Origin: a virus
Virus record (IMG/VR): IMGVR_UViG_3300031857_000844
Coordinates: 1-31,972 of that record
Strand: one strand, 5' to 3'
Length of the DNA stretch: 31,972 nt
Shown piece after piece: positions 2,814 through 29,577 of the stretch. Position numbers and translations under genes: made by a program. Below the pieces are notes generated by a model. That model made no database searches and was not told the DNA's origin. It worked only from the letters and a program-made list of their open reading frames with translations. Position 1 is the first letter of the stretch. Every line of letters starts with the position of its first letter.

Positions 2814-3224
2814 ATGATACAAGTATCAATAAAAAGAAGTGGACAACTTACTAACCAAGCCTCTTTCCCAACAATGGAAGAAGCTCAAGCTTGGCTTTCT
2901 CACCACGAAGGCATGAAAAGCTTTGGCGAACCAGCTCAAACAATTCAGCAACAAGTTGAGCTTTCTCCAGCAGTTCTTGACGAAGAAGGCAATGAGCTTT
3001 CTCCAGCTGTAATGGAAATGCAGGAAATGCATATTCCGGGCAGCTATGAAGTAGAAGTTCTTGACATCTCAGCGGAGCTTGCGCAGCAAGCAATTAACGC
3101 AGAAGCACAAGCTTTTCTTGCGTCAACTGATTGGATGGTAATTAGAGCGGCTGAACGTGGAGAAGAACTTTCTCCAGAGTTTAAAGCCGAAAGACAAGCT
3201 GCGAGAGATCGCATAGTTAAGTAA
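2814..3224 (+). CDS. Tail fibre assembly chaperone-like protein
   Basis: 136 residues. The ATG at 2814 is chosen because AAAGGA lies 7 bases ahead and the fibre stop codon is at 2810-2812; a longer frame begins with a TTG inside the fibre gene. The N-terminal half (MIQVSIKRSG, then a Trp-containing helix AQAWLSHHEG) leads to GSYEVEVLDIS and a helical C-terminus with the pattern FLASTDWMVIRAAERG followed by ERQAARDRI. That A-x-T-D-W-x-x-x-R-x-x-E-x-G pattern is typical of phage tail-fibre assembly proteins of the Phage_tail_APC type. It probably helps the upstream fibre to fold or trimerise. The stop overlaps the next start (TAATG), so the two are probably translationally coupled. Family assignment is from motif memory, not a search. 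Confidence 0.72.
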   Translation: MIQVSIKRSGQLTNQASFPTMEEAQAWLSHHEGMKSFGEPAQTIQQQVELSPAVLDEEGNELSPAVMEMQEMHIPGSYEVEVLDISAELAQQAINAEAQAFLASTDWMVIRAAERGEELSPEFKAERQAARDRIVK

Positions 3225-3709
3225 TGTACAAGCTTATTGTTCGCCAAGGTGACATTGAGCAAGTACACGAGTTTGAAAGCTCTGAATTAGCTCAGCTTTA
3301 TCGAGACTATCATTTAGCTTTTGGACATTGGAATGGAATTTCCAAGTGGGTTGAAGAAAAAGACCTCACTCCAGAAAGTAGAAGATTTGTTGTGGATGAA
3401 AAAACAGAGCTTATTAACGGAGAAATTGTTCGTTTTTTTAAGCTTACGGAAGGAATTGAGCTTAAGATTGAAGAAGTAACTTCCAACTCTGTTGCAGAAG
3501 TTTGGAAGATTCTTAGAAAAAAAAGAAGTGAGCTTTTACAAATTACAGACTGGACGCAACTTGCTGATTGTGCTCTTACTACAGAAGAAAAAAAAGAGTA
3601 CAGAGCATATCGAAGTTATCTAAGAACTATCCCAGTGCTGTACGACGATTACACAGTGGTTTATGCAAAAGCCTATTCTTTTGAAGACTGGAAAAAAGGT
3701 AAGCGGTGA
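3224..3709 (+). CDS. Second tail assembly chaperone-like protein
   Basis: 161 residues, starting on the A of the preceding TAA. The N-terminal domain of about 85 residues is charged alpha/beta (MYKLIVRQGDIEQVHEFES, then GIELKIEEV). The C-terminus holds RSELLQITDWTQLADCALTTEEKKEYRAYR and then TIPV, broken here by a comma-free but recognisable pattern: R-x-x-L-L-x-x-T-D-W-T-Q-L-x-D followed by a Tyr-Arg-rich helix and I-P. This is the signature of the Phage_tail_APC family, seen in many fibre assembly proteins. Its stop overlaps the GTG start of the next gene. Its position between fibre genes fits a role in appendage assembly. Two different chaperone-like genes in tandem suggest they either act together or serve different fibres. 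Confidence 0.72.
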   Translation: MYKLIVRQGDIEQVHEFESSELAQLYRDYHLAFGHWNGISKWVEEKDLTPESRRFVVDEKTELINGEIVRFFKLTEGIELKIEEVTSNSVAEVWKILRKKRSELLQITDWTQLADCALTTEEKKEYRAYRSYLRTIPVLYDDYTVVYAKAYSFEDWKKGKR

Positions 3710-4339: not shown

Positions 4340-7189
4340 ATGGCACATACAGCAATACGACTTGGCTATGTTTCAGTATCTGGAGGCGGGAGCGGAGGAA
4401 TTGTTGAGTACGCTAATTTAGCAGCATTCCCCCCAATAGGTCAGTCTAGCACTGTTTACTTAGCTTTAGACACAAAAAAGATTTATAAATGGAGTTCTGG
4501 AGCTTATGTTCTAATTTCTCCTTCTGAGGTTACTTCAGTAAACACAGAGACTGGAGTTGTAGTTTTAGACAAGGCTGATATTGGTCTTGGAAATGTAGAC
4601 AATACTAGCGACGCTGATAAACCTATAAGCGATGACACTCAGGATGCGCTAGATTTAAAGATTGACTCAACGGAAAAAGGTGCAGCCAGTGGGGTTGCTC
4701 CACTCAATGCGTCATCTAAGATAGATTCCACTTATCTACCAAGCTATGTTGATGATGTTTTAGAGTTTGTTAATTTAGCAGCGTTTCCTCCAACTGGGGA
4801 AGCTGGTATTATATACTTAGCTTTAGATACAAATAAAATTTATAGATGGTCTGGCTCGGTTTACGTTGAAGTTTCTCAAGGTATTACAGATCACACCTTA
4901 TTAAGTAATATTGGTACAAACACCCACGCTGACATTGACAGTGCTTTAAATTTAATTATAAATGTAAATTGGACAGGCGATTATAACAACGGCACAACTT
5001 ACACAGTTGGCGACGGTGTAATGTATAATGGTGCTTCGTTCAGAATGATTGCATCAATTGGAGCTGCTGGTTATGCACCTCCAGCTTATCCGGGTAATTG
5101 GCTTCAAGTTACGGACTATGTTTCTCCAAATGATATAGGCCTTGGCAGTGTTGATAATACTTCAGATGCTGATAAACCAATTTCGGACGATACTCAAGAC
5201 GCTCTAGATTTAAAAGTAGACTTAGCTGGCGACATAATGACTGGCGAGCTTACAATGCAGGACGCTCCCATTGTTGTAGACTATACAACAACTCAAGGCT
5301 TTCCAACAACAACAGAATTAAATGCTAATTCTATTTTATTATTATCTAATAATGGTACAGACTCTAAAGAGCTAAATCAAACTTCCTCTACTTCTACTTT
5401 AAACAGAACAAATATTGCATCTGCCACTTCAGATGCGAATATGGTATTGAGCGTTGAAGATGGTGCTCCATATTTACTTGCTCAAACTACAGACTACGCA
5501 AATGATACTTTTAGCCAAACAACCTTAAGCTCTCAAAGCTTTGGAATAGATTTTACAGACAATACGACAGGTGTAAACTCAATAACTATATTTGGATCAG
5601 GTGCTTATACAATTCAAACCACGCAACCTGATAGCTCTTATGTTCTTATTGAAGGAACAAGTACAGGTACGTCTGCTACTCAATTCGATGGAGTTGACAC
5701 TAATCCATTAATGCCAACATTACCAGAGCATTACACTGTTAAAGAATATGTTGACAACTTAGTTAGTGGCGGAGAAACGGGCATTCTAGAGCGTTTTGAA
5801 GTAATGAAAGAGCCAACAGGCTTTATCGACAGAACAAGCTCTACGACTTCTTTTGTTGATCTTACAAGAGAATTTACAATTGCTCCAACAGGAGCTTCTT
5901 ATGATGTTTACGTGCAGGGAGATAAGTTTACTAAATCAGCTTCTGAAACTATTATTTTAGACAACTTAAGCGGAAACCACTACATATATTTTAACAGCCT
6001 AGGGAACTTGTCGTCTACTCAAATAATTAACTCTGATTTATTTCAGAACAATGCATTAATATCAGTTATATACTGGAACTCAGATACTTCTAGCCATACT
6101 TATTTTGCAGAAGAACGTCATGGGTTAAGTATGGATGGGGCAACTCACTCCTATCTACATACTGTATTTGGTGCGAGATACCTATCAGGTCTTGCTTTGC
6201 AAGGATTTACTGTTGACGGAAGTGGTAACTCTGATACTCACGCTCAATTCACAGCAGACTCTGGATCAATTAGAGACGAAGATCTTCTCATCACAATGTC
6301 GGCTCAGTCTCAGATTCCAGTTTTATACAGACAAGGACAATTATGGAGAAAGAAAGCTGCAGATAGCTTTCCAGTTATTTATAGCGGAACGGCTGGATAC
6401 ACTGGGGCCTCAAGTAGACTTCCATACAACCAGTTTACAGGCGGATCTTGGCAATTAACGGAAGTAGCAAATAACGCATTTGTACTTGTTCACTTTTTTG
6501 GTACGAATGATAAAGAAAATCCGATTGTTGCAATTCAAGGTATTGATACTTACGGTAACGTGACTGCGGCGAGACTTGCTGCCAGCACTGAAATTACAAG
6601 CTTATCCGGCCTTCCTTTTGCTGAATTTGTTGCTGTTGGTAGCGTTGTTTTTGAATCAGCAGATGGATATACCAACACGCCAAAAGCTATAGTAAGATCA
6701 GTAAATGGCGGAGATTATGTAGATTTTAGAGGAACTCAGCTTTATACTCCAGCGGGTGAGCCAACTACTCACGGATTACTTTCTGGCTTATCTAGCGACG
6801 ATCACTTACAATACCATACAGATGCTAGAGGTGACGCTAGGTACAATTTAAAATCCGCAGGAGATATTTCAGAAGGTTCCTTTTCTTTGGCAAATAACGA
6901 GCCTTTAGCAACTTCTATAACGGGGTTTGCTTTTGATAACGGAATTGTCAGGTCTTTTGAAGCACAACTCTCTATTAAAATTGATGCAACTTCTGATCTT
7001 TTCGAAGAGATTAAGATGTCTGGGATACAAAAAGGATCAAGCTGGGAAATAAGCCTACAATCCACTGGGGATGAATCTGGAGTTCAGTTTAGCATTACCA
7101 ATGCTGGGCAGATTCAATATACATCTCCAAACTATTCAGGATTTGTGTCTGGTGTCATTAAATTCAGGGCTTTAACTACTTCCGTATAA
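4340..7189 (+). CDS. Large modular tail fibre protein
   Basis: 949 residues. It starts 2 bases after the previous stop. The N-terminal third is built from repeated short fibre modules: EYANLAAFPPIG...VYLALDTKKIYKW (about residues 23-55) and its closer relative YVDDVLEFVNLAAFPPTG...IYLALDTNKIYRWSG (about 135-175), and two copies of IGLGNVDNTSDADKPISDD (bases about 4580-4660 and 5135-5215). Fibre-typical linkers HTLLSNIGTNTHADIDSAL and HGLLSGLSSDDHLQYHTD also appear. The middle, about residues 300-500, is a mainly beta region. The last 100 residues (ISEGSFSLANNEP to the end) look like a compact beta tip. A third copy of the YVDDVLEF module lies in the fibre at 8640. Function is host adsorption by inference. 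No enzymatic domain is evident. Confidence 0.82.
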   Translation: MAHTAIRLGYVSVSGGGSGGIVEYANLAAFPPIGQSSTVYLALDTKKIYKWSSGAYVLISPSEVTSVNTETGVVVLDKADIGLGNVDNTSDADKPISDDTQDALDLKIDSTEKGAASGVAPLNASSKIDSTYLPSYVDDVLEFVNLAAFPPTGEAGIIYLALDTNKIYRWSGSVYVEVSQGITDHTLLSNIGTNTHADIDSALNLIINVNWTGDYNNGTTYTVGDGVMYNGASFRMIASIGAAGYAPPAYPGNWLQVTDYVSPNDIGLGSVDNTSDADKPISDDTQDALDLKVDLAGDIMTGELTMQDAPIVVDYTTTQGFPTTTELNANSILLLSNNGTDSKELNQTSSTSTLNRTNIASATSDANMVLSVEDGAPYLLAQTTDYANDTFSQTTLSSQSFGIDFTDNTTGVNSITIFGSGAYTIQTTQPDSSYVLIEGTSTGTSATQFDGVDTNPLMPTLPEHYTVKEYVDNLVSGGETGILERFEVMKEPTGFIDRTSSTTSFVDLTREFTIAPTGASYDVYVQGDKFTKSASETIILDNLSGNHYIYFNSLGNLSSTQIINSDLFQNNALISVIYWNSDTSSHTYFAEERHGLSMDGATHSYLHTVFGARYLSGLALQGFTVDGSGNSDTHAQFTADSGSIRDEDLLITMSAQSQIPVLYRQGQLWRKKAADSFPVIYSGTAGYTGASSRLPYNQFTGGSWQLTEVANNAFVLVHFFGTNDKENPIVAIQGIDTYGNVTAARLAASTEITSLSGLPFAEFVAVGSVVFESADGYTNTPKAIVRSVNGGDYVDFRGTQLYTPAGEPTTHGLLSGLSSDDHLQYHTDARGDARYNLKSAGDISEGSFSLANNEPLATSITGFAFDNGIVRSFEAQLSIKIDATSDLFEEIKMSGIQKGSSWEISLQSTGDESGVQFSITNAGQIQYTSPNYSGFVSGVIKFRALTTSV

Positions 7190-12080: not shown

Positions 12081-12196
12081 TAATTAATGGAATTCAGGTT
12101 GAGTCAGAACAGCAATTAGAAGAACTTATGGTGGATATGGATGAAGAATCTAAAATAGGTTTACGAGCTTTATACCAAGAAGAACAGAACAAATAA
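12077..12196 (+). CDS. Small acidic protein, 39 residues
   Basis: Reads MIINGIQVESEQQLEELMVD then MDEESKIGLRALYQEEQNK. The ATG overlaps the previous TGA (ATGA) and GGAG lies 5 bases upstream, within the end of the fibre gene. The overlap, the ribosome-binding site and the compact ending 4 bases before the promoter core at 12,201 all support a real gene. A short beta start (IINGIQV) is followed by an acidic amphipathic helix. Similar small proteins starting MIING-I-x-V often follow fibre genes in phages, in my recollection, with no known function. Confidence 0.62.
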   Translation: MIINGIQVESEQQLEELMVDMDEESKIGLRALYQEEQNK

Positions 12197-12200
12197 GGAA

Positions 12201-12211
12201 CACCCTTATAT
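12201..12211 (+). promoter_or_regulatory. Putative phage late promoter, copy 2
   Basis: CACCCTTATAT, identical to copies at 7222 and 18,984, 4 bases after the small gene's stop and 26 bases before the ATG at 12,238. The upstream bases AAGGAA recall the AA/GG-rich upstream part of T7-like phage promoters. This is expected to drive the adaptor and nozzle genes. Confidence 0.65.
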
Positions 12212-12237
12212 TACGTAGCAAGAAGGAGCTATAGATT

Positions 12238-13835: not shown

Positions 13836-16800
13836 GTGGCTGTATTAACTATTAACCGTGGGTTAGTGACTTCGCCAAATGAATTAGCAAAACCGGATGG
13901 TGCAGCTGATGTTTTGGATAACTGCGTCATAGACTTTGACAATATTGTTCAGAGTCGCAGAGGGTTTGCAGAGTTTGGAGTTAAGACCGACGACGACTCA
14001 ACTATAAAACAACTCATGACCTACAAAGGTCGAATACTAAGACACTTTAGTAATAAGTTAAGCTTTGACTCCAATGGGAATGGATCTTTCTTAAATTTTT
14101 CAGGCGCATATTCTGAGCTTGTTCAAATGCTTAGAATTAAGTATTTCGAGCTTAACTCAAATCTGTACTTCACCACAAGCGAAGGGATAAAAAAAATTTC
14201 TGCCAAATCGGCGAATGACTTTACAACTAATGCAGGATTCATAACTAATGCTGGGGCTGTAAAAGCTTTAGGATTGGAAGGTGTAATTATTCCCTCCGCT
14301 TCTGGTTTCTTACCCGCTCAATCAAAAGTTGGGTACAAAATTCTATGGGCAAAAAAAGATGCCAATGGAAACATTATTCGTGGAGTTCCAAGTTCTAGGT
14401 ACGTACTCACCAATACTTCAAAAGATATAAGTTCTGGAGAGGAGTTCACCATAACAGTGACTTCTGCTGGTGCTGGAATTCATAACACATTTGACTCTAC
14501 AACGGCTGTCGCAGCCACAGTAATCACAATTACCAACCACGGATTTACTGCTGGAACTAAGGTTAGATTTTATGGAACCATAGCTCCAGAGTTAAACAAA
14601 AATACAGACTACTACATAGTCAACGTAACAACCCCTAACGTGTTTGGAGTATCTCTCACGTCGGGAGGTGCAGCAATATCATTAACGGATATAGCTGGAA
14701 CTGCTTACGTTTATAGCGGTATTAATAACAGTCATTATTTTACTTTTGACACACCGTCTAACAAATTCGCTTGTTGGTTTAACATCTCTGGAACTGACGT
14801 TGCTCCAACTGCAACAGCTCTCGTAGGGAGAGATCTGAGAGAAGTAGAGATATTCAAAGTAGCCAATAAGACCGACATTAACTACATGGCAAAAATTGCC
14901 GAGACGATATCTTTGATTTCAGACGTTAAAGTAGTTTCCACATCCACTGAAGTCACTGTAACAAACATTGACGGAGGAAACGTAACAGACGCTTCCAAGG
15001 GTAACATTCTTGTAACCCCTCCAACTGCTGAGTTAATACAAATATCCAAAGTTTTTGACGGACAAACAGCCACTGGAATTCCTGCAAACACTTCTATCAC
15101 GTTTATTGTACCAACAGAAATCATAACAAACAACGATAGAGACTATTTCTACGAGATATACAGAACAGCAACTATAACAGTAGCTACGGGCTTGACGCTT
15201 AACGATATAGATCCCGGGGAAGAATTCCAGAAGGTAGCCGAGTCTCCCGTTGTAGAAAACTCATCTCCAATTCCTTCAAGCATAACATTTGAAGACATAG
15301 TTCCAGAAGCCTTCAGAGAGGGCGGGTTATTTTTATACACCAACCCAGTAACTGGAGAAGGTGCTTTGTATTCAAACGAACAGCCTCCAATAGCGCACGA
15401 CGTTGCGGTGTTTAAAAACTCTGCGTTCTACGCTAATACAAAAGAAAAGCACAGAATTCAGTTCAACATATTGTCGGTAAGTCAATTTACTTCTGGAGTG
15501 TCTAAGTTTTATATTACTAACTCCCAGACTGTCAGATCTTACACTTTTGTTGGAAGAAATGAAATAGTTGATTTCACCGCTAAGAAACAAGCTGAAACTA
15601 CAGGCGGATCTTATTTTGATGTTATGTCAGCTCAGGATAAAGTTAAATACCGTGTCTGGTTCGACAAAGGAACCATAGACCTAAGCTTTACTGAAGCGGC
15701 TGTAAACGCTGGAACTGATCAAATCACTATAACAGATCACGGACTAAATACTGACGACGAGATCACTATCTCTGGAGCAAGTTTACCCGCTGGATTGACA
15801 GCTGGAACTTACTACGTAATTCGAGTAAGCGATAACATATTTCAATTAAAAACAACCATAGGCGGCTCTGTATTTGACCTGTCGGCAGCGGCAGGAACGG
15901 CTAACTTAATTCACACTTCTGAAGCTCCAACTAACGATTCCTCAATTCTTCTCAGAGTTGCTCTGGAAGGGTATGACAATACAGTACAAGGATCTGTTGA
16001 CGCTTTTATTGGGGCATTCTTTGATGTTCCAGATTTTGAAGCCACAGACTTAGGATCTGGTGTAATACGTATTACCTATCAAGACAACGGCGATGCTAGT
16101 CCGGCAGTTCAATCCTCTCCAGCTTCTGGATGGATTACTCCAACTGTTTTTCAGCAAGGTCTTGGAGAGAATGCTGCGGCTAACGAAGTTCTTCTTTCAG
16201 GACTTGCTTCTCAAAGTTTGTCTGTTGAAGACACTGCAAGATCGCTGGAAAGAGTTATAAACAAAGACTCCTTGTCTCCAGTTAATGCATTTTACTTGTC
16301 TGGTCCATCTGACCTTCCGGGAATCATTCTCTTGGAAGCAAAGTCTCTTGTGGACGATCCAATATTTCTTGCATTTGGACACTCAACAACAACGCCTGTG
16401 TTTGAACCTTCTCTTCCTGTTGTGAGAACAGTTACAAACGTAACAACTCCAAATAGCATAACAACTTTAACAAACCACGAGTTCAGTGCTGGTCAAAGCA
16501 TTTACGCTTACATAAAGCCAGCGGCTATAGCTCCTATATTAGCTGGAAGAAAAACTGTAAACACAGCACCAACTCCAACCTCATTCACTGTAACAGGTTT
16601 TTCAACCTTAGTAAACTACTCCTCGTTTGATCAGGCTATTGTTTTTTCAGCCGATGTAGTTTCTGATAATTCTACAAATCCAAACAGAGTGTATTTCTCT
16701 AAGATTAACCAACCAGAGGCTGTTCCTTTTGTTAACTATATAGACATTGGCCCGAAGGATAAACCTATCCAGAGGGTTATGGCTTTAAGAGATAGTTTAG

Positions 16801-18164
16801 TTGTTTTAAAGGAAGACGGGGTTTACATTATATCAGGCCCAGCTGCTCCAAATTTCAGCGTGAGACTGTCCGATTCATCAGCCCTAACATTTGCTCCAGA
16901 CACGGCCACAAACCTCAATAACCTCATTTATGTGCTTACCAGCCAAGGTGTTGCCACTGTGTCAGAAACTGGAGTTGGAATCATCTCAAGAAACATAGAA
17001 AACAAGATACAGGAAGTTGCCAACGCTAAGTTTAATTACAAGCTAATGAGCTGGGGTATGTCCTCGGAATCTGATAGATGCTATTTAATCTGGCTTCCAG
17101 AAAAAACTACAGACACCTTCGCCACCCAAGCTTTTAGATACAACACATTTACAAGAACTTGGACTCGCTGGACAAAACCAGCCAATTGTGGAGTTGTTAA
17201 TCCAAGTGATGACAAGATTTACTTAGGTGATGCGTCAGGAAGACCTTATGTAGTTAAGGAAAGAAAAAACTTTGAAAGACAGGACTACGCAGACAGAGAA
17301 ATTATAAGAATTATAGGGTCTTCAGCTATTAGCGAATCTACTATAATATTATCCTCTGTTACAGAGCTTGAGCCGGGTGATGTCATAACTCAAGTTCAAT
17401 ACCTAGACATTAACAAGTTCAACAGACTTTTAAAAAAGCTTGACAGGGATTTTCTCCCGTCAAGCGATTACATCTCACTAAAGGCTACAACAGGGGATAG
17501 TTTTGCAACTAAACTGTTGCAGCTTTCTACTAAGCTTCAGGGAGAGGGAGTTATGGTTCCAACAAGCTCTAACTCAAACTCAGCAACGGTTATCAGAGAT
17601 GACTTTAACGCAATTGTAAACTATCTTAACAGCCCTGCTGCTTCTACTGGGTTTAAGAATTATAAAACAGTTACTGATGTTTTAACTTACGAAACTCTTA
17701 TAACAGCTGTGAATTCTAAAACCAACACTATCACAGTAAACTTTATGACTAAATTTGTGCAAGGGGATGTTAGTCTGTTCAAAGCAATTAAATGCTTGGT
17801 TCAGTACGCTCCTCAACATTTTGGAAAACCAGAGTCAACTAAGCAAGTCTCTGAGGGAACTTTTATTTTCGACCAGAATAACTTCTGGGGTGGAACAATG
17901 GCCTACGCTTCAGACAGATCTTTTGACTTTAAGTCGATAGAATTTTCTGGAAGAGGTCCGGGATACTGGGACGGATACAGCTGGGCAAACGCTGTGTTTG
18001 GCGGAGGCGGGAACGAAGTTCCAGTCAGAACTCTTGTCCCAATCGACAAAGCTAGATGCAGATACTTGCATGTCCAGTTTAGTCACAAGAATGCCAGAGA
18101 AGAGTGGAAACTCATTGGAGTTTCTTTAGAGCCAAGAGAAGTTTCTACCAGAGGATATCGCTAA
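13836..18164 (+). CDS. Very large tail nozzle (tail tube B-like) protein
   Basis: 1442 residues, GTG start at 13,836 with AAGGTGG upstream and 3 bases after the adaptor stop. The N-terminus (INRGLVTSPNELAKPDGAAD, then CVIDFDNIVQSRRGFAEFG) is typical of podoviral tail nozzle proteins. The C-terminal half contains a beta-propeller-like part (LVVLKEDGVYIISGP, IYVLTSQGVATVSETGVGII, YNTFTRTWTRWTKP, IYLGDASGRPYVV). At least three inserted beta modules with N/D-H-G-x-x-x-G/D-x-x-I/V lie at about residues 221-285, 618-695 and 866-922, and a WFNISG module at about 306-345. T7 gp12 is about 800 residues and P22 gp10 about 470, so this protein is unusually long, mainly because of insertions. It should form the tail nozzle and carry appendages. 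No cleavage motif recognised. Confidence 0.78.
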   Translation: MAVLTINRGLVTSPNELAKPDGAADVLDNCVIDFDNIVQSRRGFAEFGVKTDDDSTIKQLMTYKGRILRHFSNKLSFDSNGNGSFLNFSGAYSELVQMLRIKYFELNSNLYFTTSEGIKKISAKSANDFTTNAGFITNAGAVKALGLEGVIIPSASGFLPAQSKVGYKILWAKKDANGNIIRGVPSSRYVLTNTSKDISSGEEFTITVTSAGAGIHNTFDSTTAVAATVITITNHGFTAGTKVRFYGTIAPELNKNTDYYIVNVTTPNVFGVSLTSGGAAISLTDIAGTAYVYSGINNSHYFTFDTPSNKFACWFNISGTDVAPTATALVGRDLREVEIFKVANKTDINYMAKIAETISLISDVKVVSTSTEVTVTNIDGGNVTDASKGNILVTPPTAELIQISKVFDGQTATGIPANTSITFIVPTEIITNNDRDYFYEIYRTATITVATGLTLNDIDPGEEFQKVAESPVVENSSPIPSSITFEDIVPEAFREGGLFLYTNPVTGEGALYSNEQPPIAHDVAVFKNSAFYANTKEKHRIQFNILSVSQFTSGVSKFYITNSQTVRSYTFVGRNEIVDFTAKKQAETTGGSYFDVMSAQDKVKYRVWFDKGTIDLSFTEAAVNAGTDQITITDHGLNTDDEITISGASLPAGLTAGTYYVIRVSDNIFQLKTTIGGSVFDLSAAAGTANLIHTSEAPTNDSSILLRVALEGYDNTVQGSVDAFIGAFFDVPDFEATDLGSGVIRITYQDNGDASPAVQSSPASGWITPTVFQQGLGENAAANEVLLSGLASQSLSVEDTARSLERVINKDSLSPVNAFYLSGPSDLPGIILLEAKSLVDDPIFLAFGHSTTTPVFEPSLPVVRTVTNVTTPNSITTLTNHEFSAGQSIYAYIKPAAIAPILAGRKTVNTAPTPTSFTVTGFSTLVNYSSFDQAIVFSADVVSDNSTNPNRVYFSKINQPEAVPFVNYIDIGPKDKPIQRVMALRDSLVVLKEDGVYIISGPAAPNFSVRLSDSSALTFAPDTATNLNNLIYVLTSQGVATVSETGVGIISRNIENKIQEVANAKFNYKLMSWGMSSESDRCYLIWLPEKTTDTFATQAFRYNTFTRTWTRWTKPANCGVVNPSDDKIYLGDASGRPYVVKERKNFERQDYADREIIRIIGSSAISESTIILSSVTELEPGDVITQVQYLDINKFNRLLKKLDRDFLPSSDYISLKATTGDSFATKLLQLSTKLQGEGVMVPTSSNSNSATVIRDDFNAIVNYLNSPAASTGFKNYKTVTDVLTYETLITAVNSKTNTITVNFMTKFVQGDVSLFKAIKCLVQYAPQHFGKPESTKQVSEGTFIFDQNNFWGGTMAYASDRSFDFKSIEFSGRGPGYWDGYSWANAVFGGGGNEVPVRTLVPIDKARCRYLHVQFSHKNAREEWKLIGVSLEPREVSTRGYR

Positions 18165-18580
18165 TGCCAAAGCTTAGCGACATTAGAAGAATTATTCCAG
18201 AGGATGTGGACACTAAAGCCACTCCCGTTGACATTGTGGAAACCGTAGCTGGGTCATACAATGAGTTTGCTGATGAAATATATCAGGTAGTAAACGGTCA
18301 ATTGGATTTTGAAAATCTAGCTCGTGCCATGATTAGCCTTGAAATTTCATTTGACTCAACAGGAAAACCAGTTGGGAATTCTTCTATCAGCTCAAGACTT
18401 TCTTATGTTTCTATGCTGCATGTTGGGAAGGTTCAGAATGTAACTAGCCCTGCAACCAGAATAACTCAGATTCCATACATTGATTGGAGTTTGCAAGGTA
18501 ATGGGGTCATTAAGATAAATTATGGGGTTGGCTTTGTAGCTGGCAACAAATATAGATTGACTCTGGAACTTATTAAGTAA
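18164..18580 (+). CDS. Small virion protein following the nozzle gene
   Basis: 138 residues. The ATG at 18,164 overlaps the nozzle stop (TAATG) and has AGAGGA 8 bases upstream; a longer frame starting inside the nozzle gene has no such site. N-terminus MPKLSDIRRIIPEDVDTKAT; helical AGSYNEFADEIYQVVNGQLD; then beta-rich ISLEISFDSTGKPVGNSS, a G-K-V-Q-N-V-T-S segment and the end GVGFVAGNKYRLTLELIK. The plan (short helix pair, then N-L-F/x-L-x-V-x-x-D-x-x-G-x-P) recurs in small phage structural proteins next to nozzle genes, as I recall. Probably a nozzle cofactor or appendage anchor. It is the last gene before a 403-bp stretch without genes. Confidence 0.68.
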   Translation: MPKLSDIRRIIPEDVDTKATPVDIVETVAGSYNEFADEIYQVVNGQLDFENLARAMISLEISFDSTGKPVGNSSISSRLSYVSMLHVGKVQNVTSPATRITQIPYIDWSLQGNGVIKINYGVGFVAGNKYRLTLELIK

Positions 18581-18983
18581 CGCTCGACTTTTTTAGAGTC
18601 TCGCTTTTAGACATAGTAAGAGCTTAGAATACATCTATTTGTCAGCAAAACTCAGATGCATGGGAGTTGCCTAAGCTGAATTACCAAGTTCAGCACGTTC
18701 TACTAACACGTTGAATTCTCTACTTCCTAAGTTGGCCTTAGCGAAGATTTTTCTGCGTGTGGCTGGTTTATTTACCCAGCTCTCTGCGCATCCATGCTTT
18801 TCCTACCCAGTAACTTAATACCCTCCTGAGAAAAGACGAGGAATGTCAGTAGAAAGATAGTCCAAATTGCCCCTCATTTCATGGCGTATGGAGTTACCTT
18901 GTATAAGTAGTTTACACTAAGTTATTAAAAAAAGCAAACTTGTAACTAATTGATTTTGGGTTGAGTTGAAAAACGCCATATAA
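18581..18983 (+). other. 403-bp gene-free region with several hairpins; candidate non-coding RNA
   Basis: No frame longer than about a dozen codons starts on the plus strand here, in a genome where gaps are normally under 60 bp. Visible pairings: AACTC/GAGTT (18,649-18,653 with 18,664-18,668); GCTGAATT/AA-TTCAGC (18,675-18,694, one bulge); a 9-bp hairpin at 18,723-18,746; TGCG/CGCA (18,754-18,757 with 18,787-18,790) enclosing GGCTGG/CCAGCT (18,761-18,781); and an AT-rich nested stem around AAGTT/AACTT at about 18,907-18,946. Local GC looks higher than in the flanking leader. The segment could be a small RNA, a long structured 3' untranslated region, or the remnant of a lost gene. It ends at promoter copy 3. 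Confidence 0.5.
18723..18752 (+). terminator. Terminator-like hairpin within the gene-free region
   Basis: CTTC-CTAAG pairs with CTTAG-c-GAAG (9 bp with one bulged C) around a TTGGC loop and is followed by ATTTTT. It lies 142 bases after the last gene of the adaptor-nozzle block. It could end that transcript or the proposed RNA. The T-run is short and the stem carries a bulge, so strength is moderate. Confidence 0.5.
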
Positions 18984-18994
18984 CACCCTTATAT
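18984..18994 (+). promoter_or_regulatory. Putative phage late promoter, copy 3
   Basis: CACCCTTATAT in the context TAACACCCTTATATTACAGA, 18 bases before the ATG at 19,013, with AGAGGA as ribosome-binding site (18,998-19,003) directly after it. It shares 14 bases (CACCCTTATATTAC) with copy 2. Expected to drive the ejection-protein block 19,013-26,321. Confidence 0.66.
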
Positions 18995-19012
18995 TACAGA
19001 GGAAAAATACCT

Positions 19013-21409
19013 ATGGCAATTGTTAAAGACGAGGAAGAACAAAAAGGTCAAGGCACGAGTCAAGTGCTTGGACAAGGCATGGCTCAACCGGGTCAACAGC
19101 CTTCTCAACCTCAACCTCAACAAGCACAAGAAGGAAGTTCAACCCCTTCCATGATAGGCGGATCGGCTCCTCAAGCCCCTGCTCAAACACCAGCCGCCCC
19201 CAAGCAGCAAAAAGCTGGCACGGGAACTTTTGCCAATCTTAAAACTTATCTTCAAGCAGCTCAAGGCGGAGGCCAGCAGAGAGTGGCTCAGGCCGCAACT
19301 CAGCAGGTTCAAAGACTTGGAGCTGGTGCTCAGAAAGGGCTTCAGCAAGCCCAGAAAGCGTTTGAAACGAGAATGCAAGCAGGAAGCTTAAAGGGAATGG
19401 AAACTGCTGGACAAGAAGCTAAAGACATTGTTGGAACTGCTAGAGGAACAACTTACCAAGCTCCCGAACAACCAGCTCCACAAGCTGCTCAGGCTCCAGC
19501 TCAGCCAGTAGAGGGAGAGCAGCCAGCACAGCCAGCGCAACCAGCTCAGCCACAAGCCCCAGCACAACCTCAACAATATTTTTCTCCAGAACAACAACAG
19601 CGTTTTGCTGAAATTATTAACGCACAATACCAAGGTCCAGAATCTTTGCAACAAGCTGGTCTTTATGAGCAAGCAGCCCAAAAGGCTAGAACTGCGCAAC
19701 AAGCAGCACAGTTGACACAGACAGCTATGGGAAGAGAGCAGTTACTAAAGGATGTTTTTGGAAGAACCAGAGACTACGGCAGAGGTCTTTCTAAGTTAGA
19801 CGCTTTGCTTCTTAATGCTTCTGAGCAAGGAGTTAAACAGCTTCAACAACAAGCTCAGCCAGCTTTGAAAGCTCAAGAAGCCTTGCAAGCAGAGCAGAAC
19901 TTATCAGCAAACACAGCGGCTCAAAGAGCGCAAGCAATTCAACAAATTGCGTCCGGAGCAAGAACTGCTTTCACTGAAGGCAGAACAGCGGAAGAACAGG
20001 CTACAGAAAAACGCATTGACGACATGATTAAAACTCCGGCAATAGAGAAAGATGCTCAAGGAAATGTTGTTCTAGATGAATCTGGACAACCCAAGAAACT
20101 TCAAAAGTTAGATGCTCAAGGCAAGCCAATGGTTGATGCCGAAGGTAAGCCAGTTTATATGACTGAGTGGGATAGACTTCCAGAATACTTTAAGAACACT
20201 ATAAGAACTTCTGCAGAAACCAATAAACAAATACAAGCAGAAGGAATTAAAAAATTAGAAGAATCTACTGGGTTAAGTGGCAAAAGATTCGATGAACTTC
20301 CGGGGCAGATTTCCCAGATTCAAAAAAAGATTGACGATATCCAAAGAAGTATGCGTAAGAAAAATCCTAGGGAGCAATCTAAGGCTAAAGATAATATAAA
20401 TAAACTCTCTGAAAGTTTAAAAACTTTACAGGGTGAATTCGCTTCTTATAAAGACTTTGGAACTCAACTTCAAGGTCTTAGAAACATGGACATGAAACAG
20501 CTGAGACTTTCTCCAGAAGAGATGGCAACTCTCGGCATTAGTTCAGGAGAAGGACTCTATAATGTCGGTCAAGACTTAATTGGAAATGTAGAAGCTAGAA
20601 GAGAAAATATTATAACAAAAGATGAACTTAGTCGCCAATTAGCATTAGCGCAATTGGCAGGACTAGATAGGTCTAGTCAATTGGGTAAAGTGCTACAGTA
20701 TACAGATCTTGAAAAAGCTGGAACACAAGACTTAATGAGTTCTTTAGATACAAAAGCTATAAGAGAGTCTTTAAATAAAGCAGAGAAAGATTTTAGAGAA
20801 TATGCTGGAGGTAAGACAGTTACTGGCGAAGGAATGAAGAAAGACAAGGTAACTGGAAAGAAATATAGAGTATCTACACAGGCTAACTTAAAGGATGCTC
20901 TAAATAGATTAGGATATGATTTTGAATCAGAGCTTCCAAAGTATCAAGCTCCAGACTTATCTAGAACTCCGTATACTAGCGATCTTGATGTAGATAAAAA
21001 TACAATAATTGATGACATTACTCAAAACATAAAACCAACTGTAGATTTTAATAAAACATTAGACCCATATACCGACAGCGATTCTACATTAGCAAGAAAA
21101 GGCGGGTATGCCGCAGCTGATTATGGAACTTTAGGGATTACAGCCGGACTAAGAGGCTTAGGACTGGATATGCCCGGAGCAATTATGAGTGGTATAGATA
21201 CAGCCTTAGGAACTTCAATTTTTGGAGGAGGAGGAAATCCATCTAAAAATATTAAAACAGCAGCGGAACAAGCAAAAAGAAATTTGATAACTAATTTTCA
21301 ATCAACGCTAGAAAATGAAGGTTTTTATAATAGGGCTGCTTTAGATGAATCTCAAACCTCCTTAGCCAGACAAAAGGCTTTGATGGATCTATTAAGTAGG
21401 AAGGGATAG
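19013..21409 (+). CDS. Large Ala/Gln/Pro-rich internal virion (ejection) protein candidate
   Basis: 798 residues; ATG with AGAGGA 9 bases upstream. Residues 1-70 and about 145-190 are low-complexity Gln/Pro/Ala (PAQPAQPAQPQAPAQPQQ type). The middle (about 195-330) is helical and Gln/Ala-rich, with frequent QQA and AAQ. Residues about 340-390 carry a charged hairpin of DAQGN/DESGQPKK/DAEGKPVY repeats, and about 430-490 is a coiled coil (ISQIQKKIDDIQRSMRKKN). The C-terminal part contains a Gly-rich stretch (AADYGTLGITAGLRGLGLD, TSIFGGGGN) and ends in a helix. Size, composition and position between the nozzle gene and the holin-like gene match internal virion proteins that are ejected with DNA (T7 gp14-gp16 by analogy). 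No transglycosylase or protease motif is visible. Confidence 0.7.
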   Translation: MAIVKDEEEQKGQGTSQVLGQGMAQPGQQPSQPQPQQAQEGSSTPSMIGGSAPQAPAQTPAAPKQQKAGTGTFANLKTYLQAAQGGGQQRVAQAATQQVQRLGAGAQKGLQQAQKAFETRMQAGSLKGMETAGQEAKDIVGTARGTTYQAPEQPAPQAAQAPAQPVEGEQPAQPAQPAQPQAPAQPQQYFSPEQQQRFAEIINAQYQGPESLQQAGLYEQAAQKARTAQQAAQLTQTAMGREQLLKDVFGRTRDYGRGLSKLDALLLNASEQGVKQLQQQAQPALKAQEALQAEQNLSANTAAQRAQAIQQIASGARTAFTEGRTAEEQATEKRIDDMIKTPAIEKDAQGNVVLDESGQPKKLQKLDAQGKPMVDAEGKPVYMTEWDRLPEYFKNTIRTSAETNKQIQAEGIKKLEESTGLSGKRFDELPGQISQIQKKIDDIQRSMRKKNPREQSKAKDNINKLSESLKTLQGEFASYKDFGTQLQGLRNMDMKQLRLSPEEMATLGISSGEGLYNVGQDLIGNVEARRENIITKDELSRQLALAQLAGLDRSSQLGKVLQYTDLEKAGTQDLMSSLDTKAIRESLNKAEKDFREYAGGKTVTGEGMKKDKVTGKKYRVSTQANLKDALNRLGYDFESELPKYQAPDLSRTPYTSDLDVDKNTIIDDITQNIKPTVDFNKTLDPYTDSDSTLARKGGYAAADYGTLGITAGLRGLGLDMPGAIMSGIDTALGTSIFGGGGNPSKNIKTAAEQAKRNLITNFQSTLENEGFYNRAALDESQTSLARQKALMDLLSRKG

Positions 21410-26899: not shown

Positions 26900-27002
26900 G
26901 CTTTTCCTCCAGCCCAGCGTATAGCTTGTGACACGCTAAGAATCCTATCATGAAGGATAAAAACATGCAAGATATAAAAGTTCCCCAAGTCATGTCTTTC
27001 AT
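26844..27002 (-). CDS. Overlapping small hydrophobic (membrane or signal-like) reading frame
   Basis: 52 residues starting MKDMTWGTFISCMFLSFMIG and continuing FLACHKLYAGLEEKHGF. The ATG overlaps the TGA of the upstream gene (ATGA at 26,999-27,002), as for most genes of this operon, and the frame fills the otherwise empty 99-bp gap before overlapping the start of 26,483-26,899 by 56 bases in another frame. Residues 8-24 form one membrane or signal segment followed by A-C and Y-A-G, possible cleavage positions. No clear ribosome-binding site, so it depends on coupling. It may be a stand-alone membrane peptide, or the signal-peptide half of a secreted barrel protein whose frame has been shifted. 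Confidence 0.52.
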   Translation of the reverse strand: MKDMTWGTFISCMFLSFMIGFLACHKLYAGLEEKHGFTDIRGNNSSLHGSKP

Positions 27003-27550
27003 GACCCGACAATCCAGTGCTTTGTATTGGCTTTGTATTTTGGAAGTTCACTTGCTTCATATAATGCTTTGTCTAAGAACAATATTCTGTATTGGGGGTA
27101 TAGCATGAAGTATCCGTCCAGTGTCTGAACGGCATGAAGCTGTTTCCAATGGGTAGGATGTCTGGAGTATCCTTCTCCGACAAAATCAATGGTGAATAGA
27201 TAAGTACCTAATTTTGCATTTATCATAGTGGGGCGAACTTCACATTCAGCATACCTCAGACTTTCCATGCAAAACACATCAATGTCATCACTGATGCAGT
27301 CCCACATCTGAGCGTCAGGAAGCTGTAATTTGCCATTAATAACGTCTTCTCGAAACGTAATAGCATGTGCAGGAAGTCCTGTGAAAAGCGCACCTGTGTC
27401 CAATATAACACTAAACTGAAGGGCTTGATTCTGTCTTGCTCGCACAGACACTAAATGTCCACCAGTCTTCCCTTCTTTGTTGGAGTCGCAGTCAAAAAGG
27501 AAATAGTCCCAGACATATACTCGAATAGGAGGTAGATTAGCATTATTCAT
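26999..27550 (-). CDS. Unknown protein with retropepsin-like DTGA motif
   Basis: 183 residues; ATG at 27,550 with GGGAG 7 bases upstream, overlapping the preceding gene by 8 bases; a longer start lies in that gene. The N-terminal part reads PPIRVYVWDYFLFDCDSNKE then GGHLVSVRARQNQALQF. Residues 47-60 are SVILDTGALFTGLP: two hydrophobics, then D51-T-G-A, the active-site pattern of aspartic retropepsins. Further on come Trp/Cys-containing segments (MWDCISDDIDVFCMES), and FTIDFVGEGYSRHPTHWKQL. No second typical retropepsin hallmark (I-I/L-G-R/N) is obvious, so an enzyme cannot be claimed. Conserved-looking, soluble, no signal. I do not recognise a named family. Confidence 0.62.
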   Translation of the reverse strand: MNNANLPPIRVYVWDYFLFDCDSNKEGKTGGHLVSVRARQNQALQFSVILDTGALFTGLPAHAITFREDVINGKLQLPDAQMWDCISDDIDVFCMESLRYAECEVRPTMINAKLGTYLFTIDFVGEGYSRHPTHWKQLHAVQTLDGYFMLYPQYRILFLDKALYEASELPKYKANTKHWIVGS

Positions 27551-27734
27551 CTTCAGGCTCCCAAGCATTATCATTAACTCCGAAAGCAGGGAGTCTTACA
27601 GTTGGGGGCAACATGCCAGCTTTTTCTACAGCATCCAATACATCTTTTAAATCATCTTCCTCAAATAGGTAGTCTTGATAGAGTTTAGAATTAATAATAT
27701 TCTCAAGAATAGCTATCATCTCACTTCTTTTCAT
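27543..27734 (-). CDS. Small acidic protein with MKRSEM start
   Basis: 63 residues from the ATG at 27,734, overlapping the preceding gene by 14 bases. It begins MKRSEMIAILENIINSKLYQ, with charged helices and ends in AGMLPPTVRLPAFG plus an acidic tail WEPEDE. Small phage proteins starting M-K-R-S-E-M and carrying L-x-x-A/V-E-K/x-A-G-M-L/K-P-P are common in T7-like and other lytic phages and have no known function. The initiation could also be at the second Met (27,719), directly after the preceding stop, where AAGAAGTGAG precedes it; the family's usual start favours the first. Soluble, no Cys. Confidence 0.62.
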   Translation of the reverse strand: MKRSEMIAILENIINSKLYQDYLFEEDDLKDVLDAVEKAGMLPPTVRLPAFGVNDNAWEPEDE

Positions 27735-28806: not shown

Positions 28807-29577
28807 TTAAAAAATTAAATTCAAATTCTTTCTTTTTAATTCTACAGCTCTTTTAATTTTTTCGATCTCCTCAGGCTTTACACTTCTGTTAAACTTAAAA
28901 CTTAGCGGAGCTGAGATTAAAGGACACTTAGAAAATTGTAAAGTTGCTATACCAAACGGAGTTCTAACATCTTGTTCGTAAGTTTCTCTCAGGAGATTAT
29001 CAGCACACTTCACGTTAGCCAAAGCATCTGCGTGTTTCTTGTCTACAGCTTCATTACCATTAAGCCACAGCTCATTCACAATAGCAGCGTCATAAGCTTC
29101 TTTGGTCATTCCAACTCTCTTAGAGGCTCGTTCTGACATTCCAGACAGGATTGACTGGATATGATTCACTCTAGAATTTAGCTCTCCGGGAACTTGTCCG
29201 GACACTCCGCTTAAGAAACCACGATGACTCATCAAAGTCCCAGAAGGAATAATGTACCGAGTTCCCAGCTCTTGAACAAACTGATATCCCATGGAAGCAG
29301 CAAAGATTGTGATAGTGTGGACAGGAATTCCTAAACTTTTAATTGAGTCTACAAATCGCAAGCCAGCTGTTACTGAACCTCCGGGAGTATCTAGAACTAA
29401 ATAGATAGGAGATGCTTTTAAAGACTTGGACATGATCTCTAAAGTCTTCTTAGACACAAGCTCTGAAGTTACTTGATCGTTAAATATAACAGAATTGTTT
29501 TCTGTCAGTGTAATGTTTACAGGTGCGGCATTAGCAATATTGCAGAGCAACGCCAATACTAACAAATACTTAATCAT
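28807..29577 (-). CDS. Secreted ClpP-like serine protease
   Basis: 256 residues; ATG with GGAGAA 6 bases upstream. Residues 1-17 (MIKYLLVLALLCNIANA) are a classic signal peptide, cleaved before APV. The body is a ClpP/crotonase-type fold: LVLDTPGGSVTAGLRFVD (residues 60-77, oxyanion loop GGS), ITIFAASMGYQF with the nucleophile Ser95, and SGTLMSHRGFLSG with His118. The third residue, Asp in ClpP, aligns with Glu169 in NELWLNGNEA. A C-terminal extension of about 60 residues follows. Cytoplasmic ClpP has no signal, so this enzyme probably acts in the periplasm or on the inner membrane's outer face. It might degrade host envelope proteins or block superinfection; these are inferences. It has its own short leader (29,578-29,654). 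Confidence 0.8.
   Translation of the reverse strand: MIKYLLVLALLCNIANAAPVNITLTENNSVIFNDQVTSELVSKKTLEIMSKSLKASPIYLVLDTPGGSVTAGLRFVDSIKSLGIPVHTITIFAASMGYQFVQELGTRYIIPSGTLMSHRGFLSGVSGQVPGELNSRVNHIQSILSGMSERASKRVGMTKEAYDAAIVNELWLNGNEAVDKKHADALANVKCADNLLRETYEQDVRTPFGIATLQFSKCPLISAPLSFKFNRSVKPEEIEKIKRAVELKRKNLNLIF

Follow-up and report, generated by a model that had tools for sequence, protein, structure and literature searches.

The window analysed here is a stretch of 31,972 nt from a virus (positions 1 to 31,972 of the IMG/VR record IMGVR_UViG_3300031857_000844). In this window, a gap of 432 bp separates the stop codon at 18580 of a 158-aa frame from the ATG at 19013 of a 798-aa frame (Table 1). 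The longest frame wholly inside the gap was 35 aa in an open-reading-frame scan, which bears out the observation in an earlier note on this DNA that a 403-bp segment without any useful frame is kept here. The same note had stated that all other plus-strand gaps are shorter than 60 bp, which is wrong, as the gap at 12081-12237 is 157 bp long; it holds the window's second copy of the phage promoter motif. The gene upstream of the 432-bp gap had no PHROG or Pfam matches. A protein of 1442 aa is encoded by the plus-strand frame at 13836-18164; its one distant relative (33% identity) is in a Silvanigrella aquatica phage record (CP017838), and this similarity gives a hint of the host group of the lineage. 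Elsewhere in the window, a minus-strand cluster includes a ferredoxin-like protein (26999-27574; PHROG 3704, E 1.7e-28), which is a possible auxiliary metabolic gene, and the product of the minus-strand frame at 28807-29577 weakly resembles proteases of the head maturation and ATP-dependent kinds (PHROG 94, 133).

Table 1. Coordinates of the genes, promoters and RNA helices discussed in the text (positions in the window, except in the last line)
Feature	Position	Strand	Remarks
Upstream gene	18104..18580	+	ATG probably at 18164, then 138 aa; conserved neighbour of the RNA (alignment A1)
Downstream gene	19013..21409	+	798 aa; start rich in Q/A/P
Phage promoter TAACACCCTTATATTACAG for the 798-aa downstream gene	18981..18999	+	Conserved; lies in the final ~30 bp of the gap and accounts for part of it irrespective of the RNA
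Phage promoter motif AACACCCTTATATTACAG	12199-12216 and 18982-18999	+	Two sites in the window against 0.02 expected
Sigma70-like promoter candidate, weak, TTGCTT-17-TAAACT	18909..18937	-	7/12 matches, not above shuffles
Structured non-coding RNA (predicted), A type	18606..18900	-	5' end near 18900; conserved 3' tail ACUAUGUCUAAA at ~18606; alignment A5 (five homologues)
Helix 1 (AAGGU/AUCUU), closing the 5' hairpin (CUC/GAG)	18854..18900	-	Invariant in 6/6, hence without covariation evidence
Helix 3, central long-range stem around the core	18699..18853 (18845-18853 with 18699-18707)	-	Two-sided changes in 7/9 pairs; 100% paired
Helix 4, stem-loop arm of the core	18792..18841	-	Two-sided changes in 8/10 pairs
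Helices 5/6, hairpin with internal motifs CAGAGA ... AAU.AA ... CACA	18755..18790	-	Two-sided changes in 7/9 pairs
Helix 7	18675..18694	-	Two-sided changes in 5/6 pairs
H-type pseudoknot, helices 8 and 9 (3' part)	18632..18670	-	Two-sided changes in 10/11 pairs
DUF559 endonuclease-like ORF with zinc ribbon	L008 6748-7290	-	Between the class-B promoter region and the class-A RNA

The same locus was traced in other IMG/VR contigs through its flanking genes. Every relative retains the gap, with a length of 397-413 bp in close relatives, and it is again gene-free apart from a nuclease gene inserted in contig L008. Two classes of sequence occupy this position, which is called the late slot here: class B in ten distinct contigs, and class A in the window and L008. 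The two classes can be aligned at their common right-hand end only. A weak match of the 3' end of the window RNA in contig G008 led to a further set of RNAs, the C type, which were located by pattern scan elsewhere in four related phages (G002, G008, G010 and G015). The window, L008 and these four C-type RNAs form one family of six members with one common fold, referred to as the A/C family.

In the alignment of the six members (A5), the 53 pairs of a structure hand-drawn from the same alignment as was used for the pair counts are formed in 96.2% of cells, and 37 of them show two-sided changes, compared with 21.0 ± 2.7 in shuffled alignments, none of which (0 of 500) matched the real one. The covariation score of A5 was 0.738, against 0.260 when shuffled and 0.04-0.13 in slid controls. 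For class B (ten sequences, 58 pairs, the structure again hand-drawn from the alignment that was counted), 94.6% of cells are paired and two-sided changes occur in 22 pairs, compared with 8.6 ± 1.9 in shuffles; none of 500 shuffles was as good, and sliding the partners abolishes the signal. The class-A RNAs of the window and L008 are 82% identical over 327 bp, and this pair alone gives 10 compensatory and no broken pairs (-161.5, against -113.6 ± 6.6 with shuffled columns). The search for homologues and for compensating changes, both proposed as checks in the earlier note, was therefore answered positively on either count. The comparison of fold energy with shuffled sequence, proposed alongside them, was not, as the window sequence alone is not unusual (z -1.2 on the minus and -1.4 on the plus strand for the RNA interval, -0.15 and -1.17, respectively, for the whole gap). 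Shuffling alone would therefore miss this RNA, and it is the comparison of homologues that reveals it. The minimum-energy fold of the window's minus strand, calculated without the alignment, does give most of the covarying helices.

The ordinary fold energy of the single sequence is what could be put forward for a decayed gene or a chance structure. Such an origin has practically no probability left, because the length and position of the gap are kept in all relatives and the covariation, which refutes this reading, is far above both the shuffled and the slid controls. The gene in related phages of which this segment could be a decayed remnant, named in the earlier note as the counter-explanation, was not encountered either: the inserted nuclease excepted, no homologue has a gene in this place. 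Judged from the sequence comparison, the gap is a predicted structured non-coding RNA gene on the minus strand, of ~295 nt, from ~18900 down to 18606, and not a product of decay. That the RNA is structured and functional is almost certain. The functional structured RNA proposed earlier is thus upheld by homologues and covariation, with a different strand and different boundaries from those implied; the interval 18581-18983 had mixed two features, the minus-strand RNA and the plus-strand promoter beside it.

The A/C fold begins with a 5' hairpin closed by AAGGU/AUCUU, continues with a long stem in the centre, two arms and a further hairpin, and finishes with an H-type pseudoknot and a conserved tail (CUUACUAUGUCUAAA). 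Both hairpins that had been named from the window sequence are present and form part of the covariation structure, GCTGAATT/AA-TTCAGC as helix 7 and the TGCG..CGCA hairpin around GGCTGG/CCAGCT as helices 5/6. Helix 1 is mostly recovered in the minimum-energy fold. In helix 4, two pairs are broken in the window and L008, and in helix 8 of the window two pairs are unformed as aligned, where a bulged pairing can substitute. Covariance models built for the two domains of the family matched the window at 18754-18900 (R2, 1.2e-35) and 18606-18698 (R3, 6.4e-19), both on the minus strand, which places the 5' and 3' domains on one strand, as expected of an A/C member. As the window belongs to the training sets of both models, the independent evidence for its membership is the covariation in A5.

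The window RNA very probably lies on the minus strand. Each of the four C homologues begins with AAGGU, and on the RNA strand this start comes 6-9 nt after ACACCCTTATW. This phage promoter motif was found in 14 of 16 phage records, on a single strand within each and with few matches in controls, and an ORF starts 25-71 nt downstream of it at 19 of the 20 sampled sites. Contig G014 is without ACACCCTTATW and uses another motif, ATCGCTATWATA; four exact sites of it are present, each on the plus strand, and 6 nt separate the end of one of them from the class-B-like match at the second G014 locus. In L008, what follows the class-B promoter region (with TATATTTGTGAACGGAGACT) is now the ATG of the minus-strand nuclease ORF. 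Sigma70-like boxes are present at the place equivalent to that of the weak candidate in the window (TTTACA-17-TATACT in L008, TTGACA-17-TATACT in L036 and TTGCCA-17-TATATT in L006). In most late-slot loci such boxes lie 5-8 nt before the RNA start, mostly with a spacing of 17 bp, and in 11 of 12 loci the opposite strand does not score higher, few of the boxes being individually significant. It is from the position of the C-type promoters, the G014 motif, the L008 arrangement and the sigma70-like boxes that the minus strand was assigned for the window. The excess of G-U over A-C cells, 40:5 in class B and 16:5 in A/C, also speaks for this strand, with many of the G-U cells coming from invariant columns.

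The strand also bears on whether the element acts in cis, as an untranslated-region structure of the late message (a processing site, a stability element or a transcript end). Its location between two co-directional genes would suit such a role, and so would the stability of the plus strand, which RNAalifold slightly favours on the six-sequence MAFFT alignment (-108.6 vs -100.2). However, the C-type and L095 homologues start right after phage promoters and read in the orientation equivalent to the window's minus strand, the minus strand gives the better fold for class B (RNAalifold with seven of the ten sequences, -126.5 vs -112.6), and the class-B promoter of L008 heads a minus-strand ORF. 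Promoter position, the energies of class B and the arrangement in L008 were the grounds for rejecting a plus-strand RNA, and a cis element on this strand is very unlikely. For the protective 3' end suggested in the earlier note there is no specific support, and the related RNA copies at other places in the genomes speak against it.

These further copies are found in a second, small-gene region of related phages, in which one class or the other stands directly after the phage's own promoter. In G002 and G010, the late slot has class B, and class C is located among small ORFs. The late slot of G014 is likewise of class B, and the small-gene region of this phage has a class-B-like RNA (model E 2.7e-7). 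This second, diverged RNA of the G014 phage lies at ~2930-3240 on the plus strand of L095 (the model match being G014 4428-4544), within a gene-poor stretch of ~1 kb. The models do not cross-match: R1, the class B core model, gave no match above chance in the window RNA or in L008, and R2 gave none in the class-B loci. A/C and B have only two motifs in common, GUGAAA.AGAG close to the 5' end and, at the 3' end, ACUAUGUC; the two classes may be a single, very diverged family. In the class B alignment (A2, columns 103-105, 139-142 and 221-224), there are two potential pairing partners for the P6 loop (ACC/GCC/AGG), namely the P5 loop (GGU/GGC) and the 3' domain (GGUU/CCUU), which suggests a possible tertiary contact or alternative pseudoknot.

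An exchange of the two classes can be followed in L008. Its flank is 95% identical to that of L006, which carries class B, yet its RNA is of class A and is set apart from this flank by the nuclease ORF, and in place of a B-type RNA it has a window-type RNA together with the DUF559 nuclease gene. Free-standing homing endonucleases of phages, such as those of T4-like phages, can spread by intronless homing, and judging by this arrangement, L008 looks like a case of intronless homing that swapped B for A. The likeness to such endonucleases lies in a nuclease beside a conserved locus that is tied to the replacement of class B by class A; intronless homing would account for the exchange of the RNA, not for the RNA itself. 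It could also be argued that the RNA is a guide, scaffold or target belonging to a mobile element or nuclease system carried by the L008 endonuclease, as the DUF559 and zinc-ribbon ORF has, with an A-type RNA, replaced a class-B RNA and as A and B swap at one site. We regard this as improbable, because the ORF was found in one late-slot contig only while the others have the RNA without a nuclease, the 3' tail after the fold is conserved, unlike a variable guide, and intronless homing near a conserved locus would already account for L008. The adjacency of RNA and nuclease gene in L008 is reminiscent of the omega RNA of IscB/TnpB (HEARO). However, the nuclease is of the DUF559 type with a zinc ribbon rather than IscB/TnpB and is absent in the other relatives, and the window family has no HEARO match and no variable guide end.

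All late-slot copies are opposite to the late genes, and the RNA lies just upstream of a phage promoter pointing the other way. This could suggest antisense or interference, in which the minus transcript would pair or collide with the late plus message and tune the flanking genes. Antisense pairing, however, needs no conserved fold, yet dozens of pairs covary; the C-type copies follow a phage promoter on the late strand, and the slot is filled by different RNA classes. We therefore consider antisense action unlikely. The RNA is probably free-standing and acts in trans, as its two loci differ in orientation, promoters and RNA classes and each class is present at two genomic positions, and we infer that it is an independent transcript. 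Taken as a whole, the explanation that we favour, and find reasonably likely, is a stand-alone minus-strand RNA gene with its own promoter, giving a pseudoknotted RNA of ~295 nt that acts in trans. The gene would be transcribed from its own promoter on the minus strand, opposite to the late genes, and the phage promoter on the plus strand would then serve the next structural gene. The RNA would fold compactly with its pseudoknot, and related phages would have a further RNA, of the same class or of one that is interchangeable with it, directly after a phage promoter in the small-gene region.

The covarying helices with invariant purine-rich loops lead us to guess, tentatively, that this trans-acting RNA binds a protein or ribonucleoprotein, of host or phage, as a folded scaffold or decoy, and does not work by antisense pairing; no partner protein emerged from the analysis. 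It is more speculative, and somewhat doubtful, that two interchangeable RNA classes of different structure, with two fixed loci apiece in this lineage of ~80 kb and swapped between genomes, share one task in trans, for example to hold or imitate a host ribonucleoprotein. The late-slot copies are opposite to the late strand, on which the C-type copies lie, and the roles may therefore not be identical.

The window had no match in Rfam 15 at the gathering threshold, and weaker Rfam matches (E up to 1-10) in the window, L036, L090, L080, L095 and L110 were at chance level or absent. No Rfam model of group I or II introns, known ribozymes, tmRNA, RNase P or 6S RNA matched, and tmRNA was also absent by ARAGORN. 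A resemblance of the plus-strand 'AAGATAGTCC' to group I introns was dropped as it had no Rfam match, and a short ORF from the conserved AUGUCUAAA tail is not conserved, as it meets an immediate stop in L011, L028 and L033. No relatives of A, B or C were found by blastn in 50,697 phage records. The 40 matches of the class-B pattern, the one pattern used on cellular genomes, were judged to be chance, with none above background on the class-B profile; pattern matches in L039 and L107 were also attributed to chance, and marginal model matches in L120 and L129 were dropped because they resemble coding sequence. The Silvanigrella phage record, a distant tail-gene relative, had no R1 or R2 match, and its next gene follows ~30 bp after the tail gene. 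All confirmed members come from one lineage of metagenomic phages, of which the longest contigs are ~80 kb. A short search of open-licence papers yielded no description of the A/C family, which we regard as a previously undescribed RNA family whose nearest kind is the large structured phage RNAs GOLLD and ROOL.

Like the pRNA of phi29, the window RNA is a small structured phage RNA that could come from its own promoter. Its compact, pseudoknotted form and its neighbours, which are virion-gene-sized ORFs, speak for a packaging or virion RNA of this kind, acting within the motor or the capsid as a ring or scaffold. On the other hand, the window gave no match to the phi29 pRNA covariance model, nor an Rfam match of any kind; the contigs of up to ~80 kb are unlike phi29 in genome size, and a fixed motor part would hardly be expected at two loci and in two interchangeable classes that cannot be aligned. 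There is thus little chance that it is such an RNA, and neither packaging nor lysis timing, both proposed in the earlier note, has gained specific support.

The A/C family adds a further structured phage RNA whose fold is backed by dozens of compensating changes and which is small enough to study. It is present at one or more extra loci and is naturally exchanged with a second class. The exchange gives a direct handle on function, since a search for a common partner becomes feasible if classes A and B can substitute for one another; the natural variants, in turn, are ready-made compensating mutants.

GOLLD and ROOL are elaborate RNAs of phages and prophages, supported by covariation and of unknown function, with GOLLD rising during lysis (PMC12286853). 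The window RNA resembles them in being phage-encoded, elaborately structured and supported by covariation. It does not belong to either, as it matches neither model. Whereas GOLLD and ROOL are roughly 600-800 nt long and lie near tRNA genes, the window RNA is ~300 nt long in a window without a tRNA gene, has no Rfam match, and comes from a single phage lineage in which two RNA classes swap at two loci.
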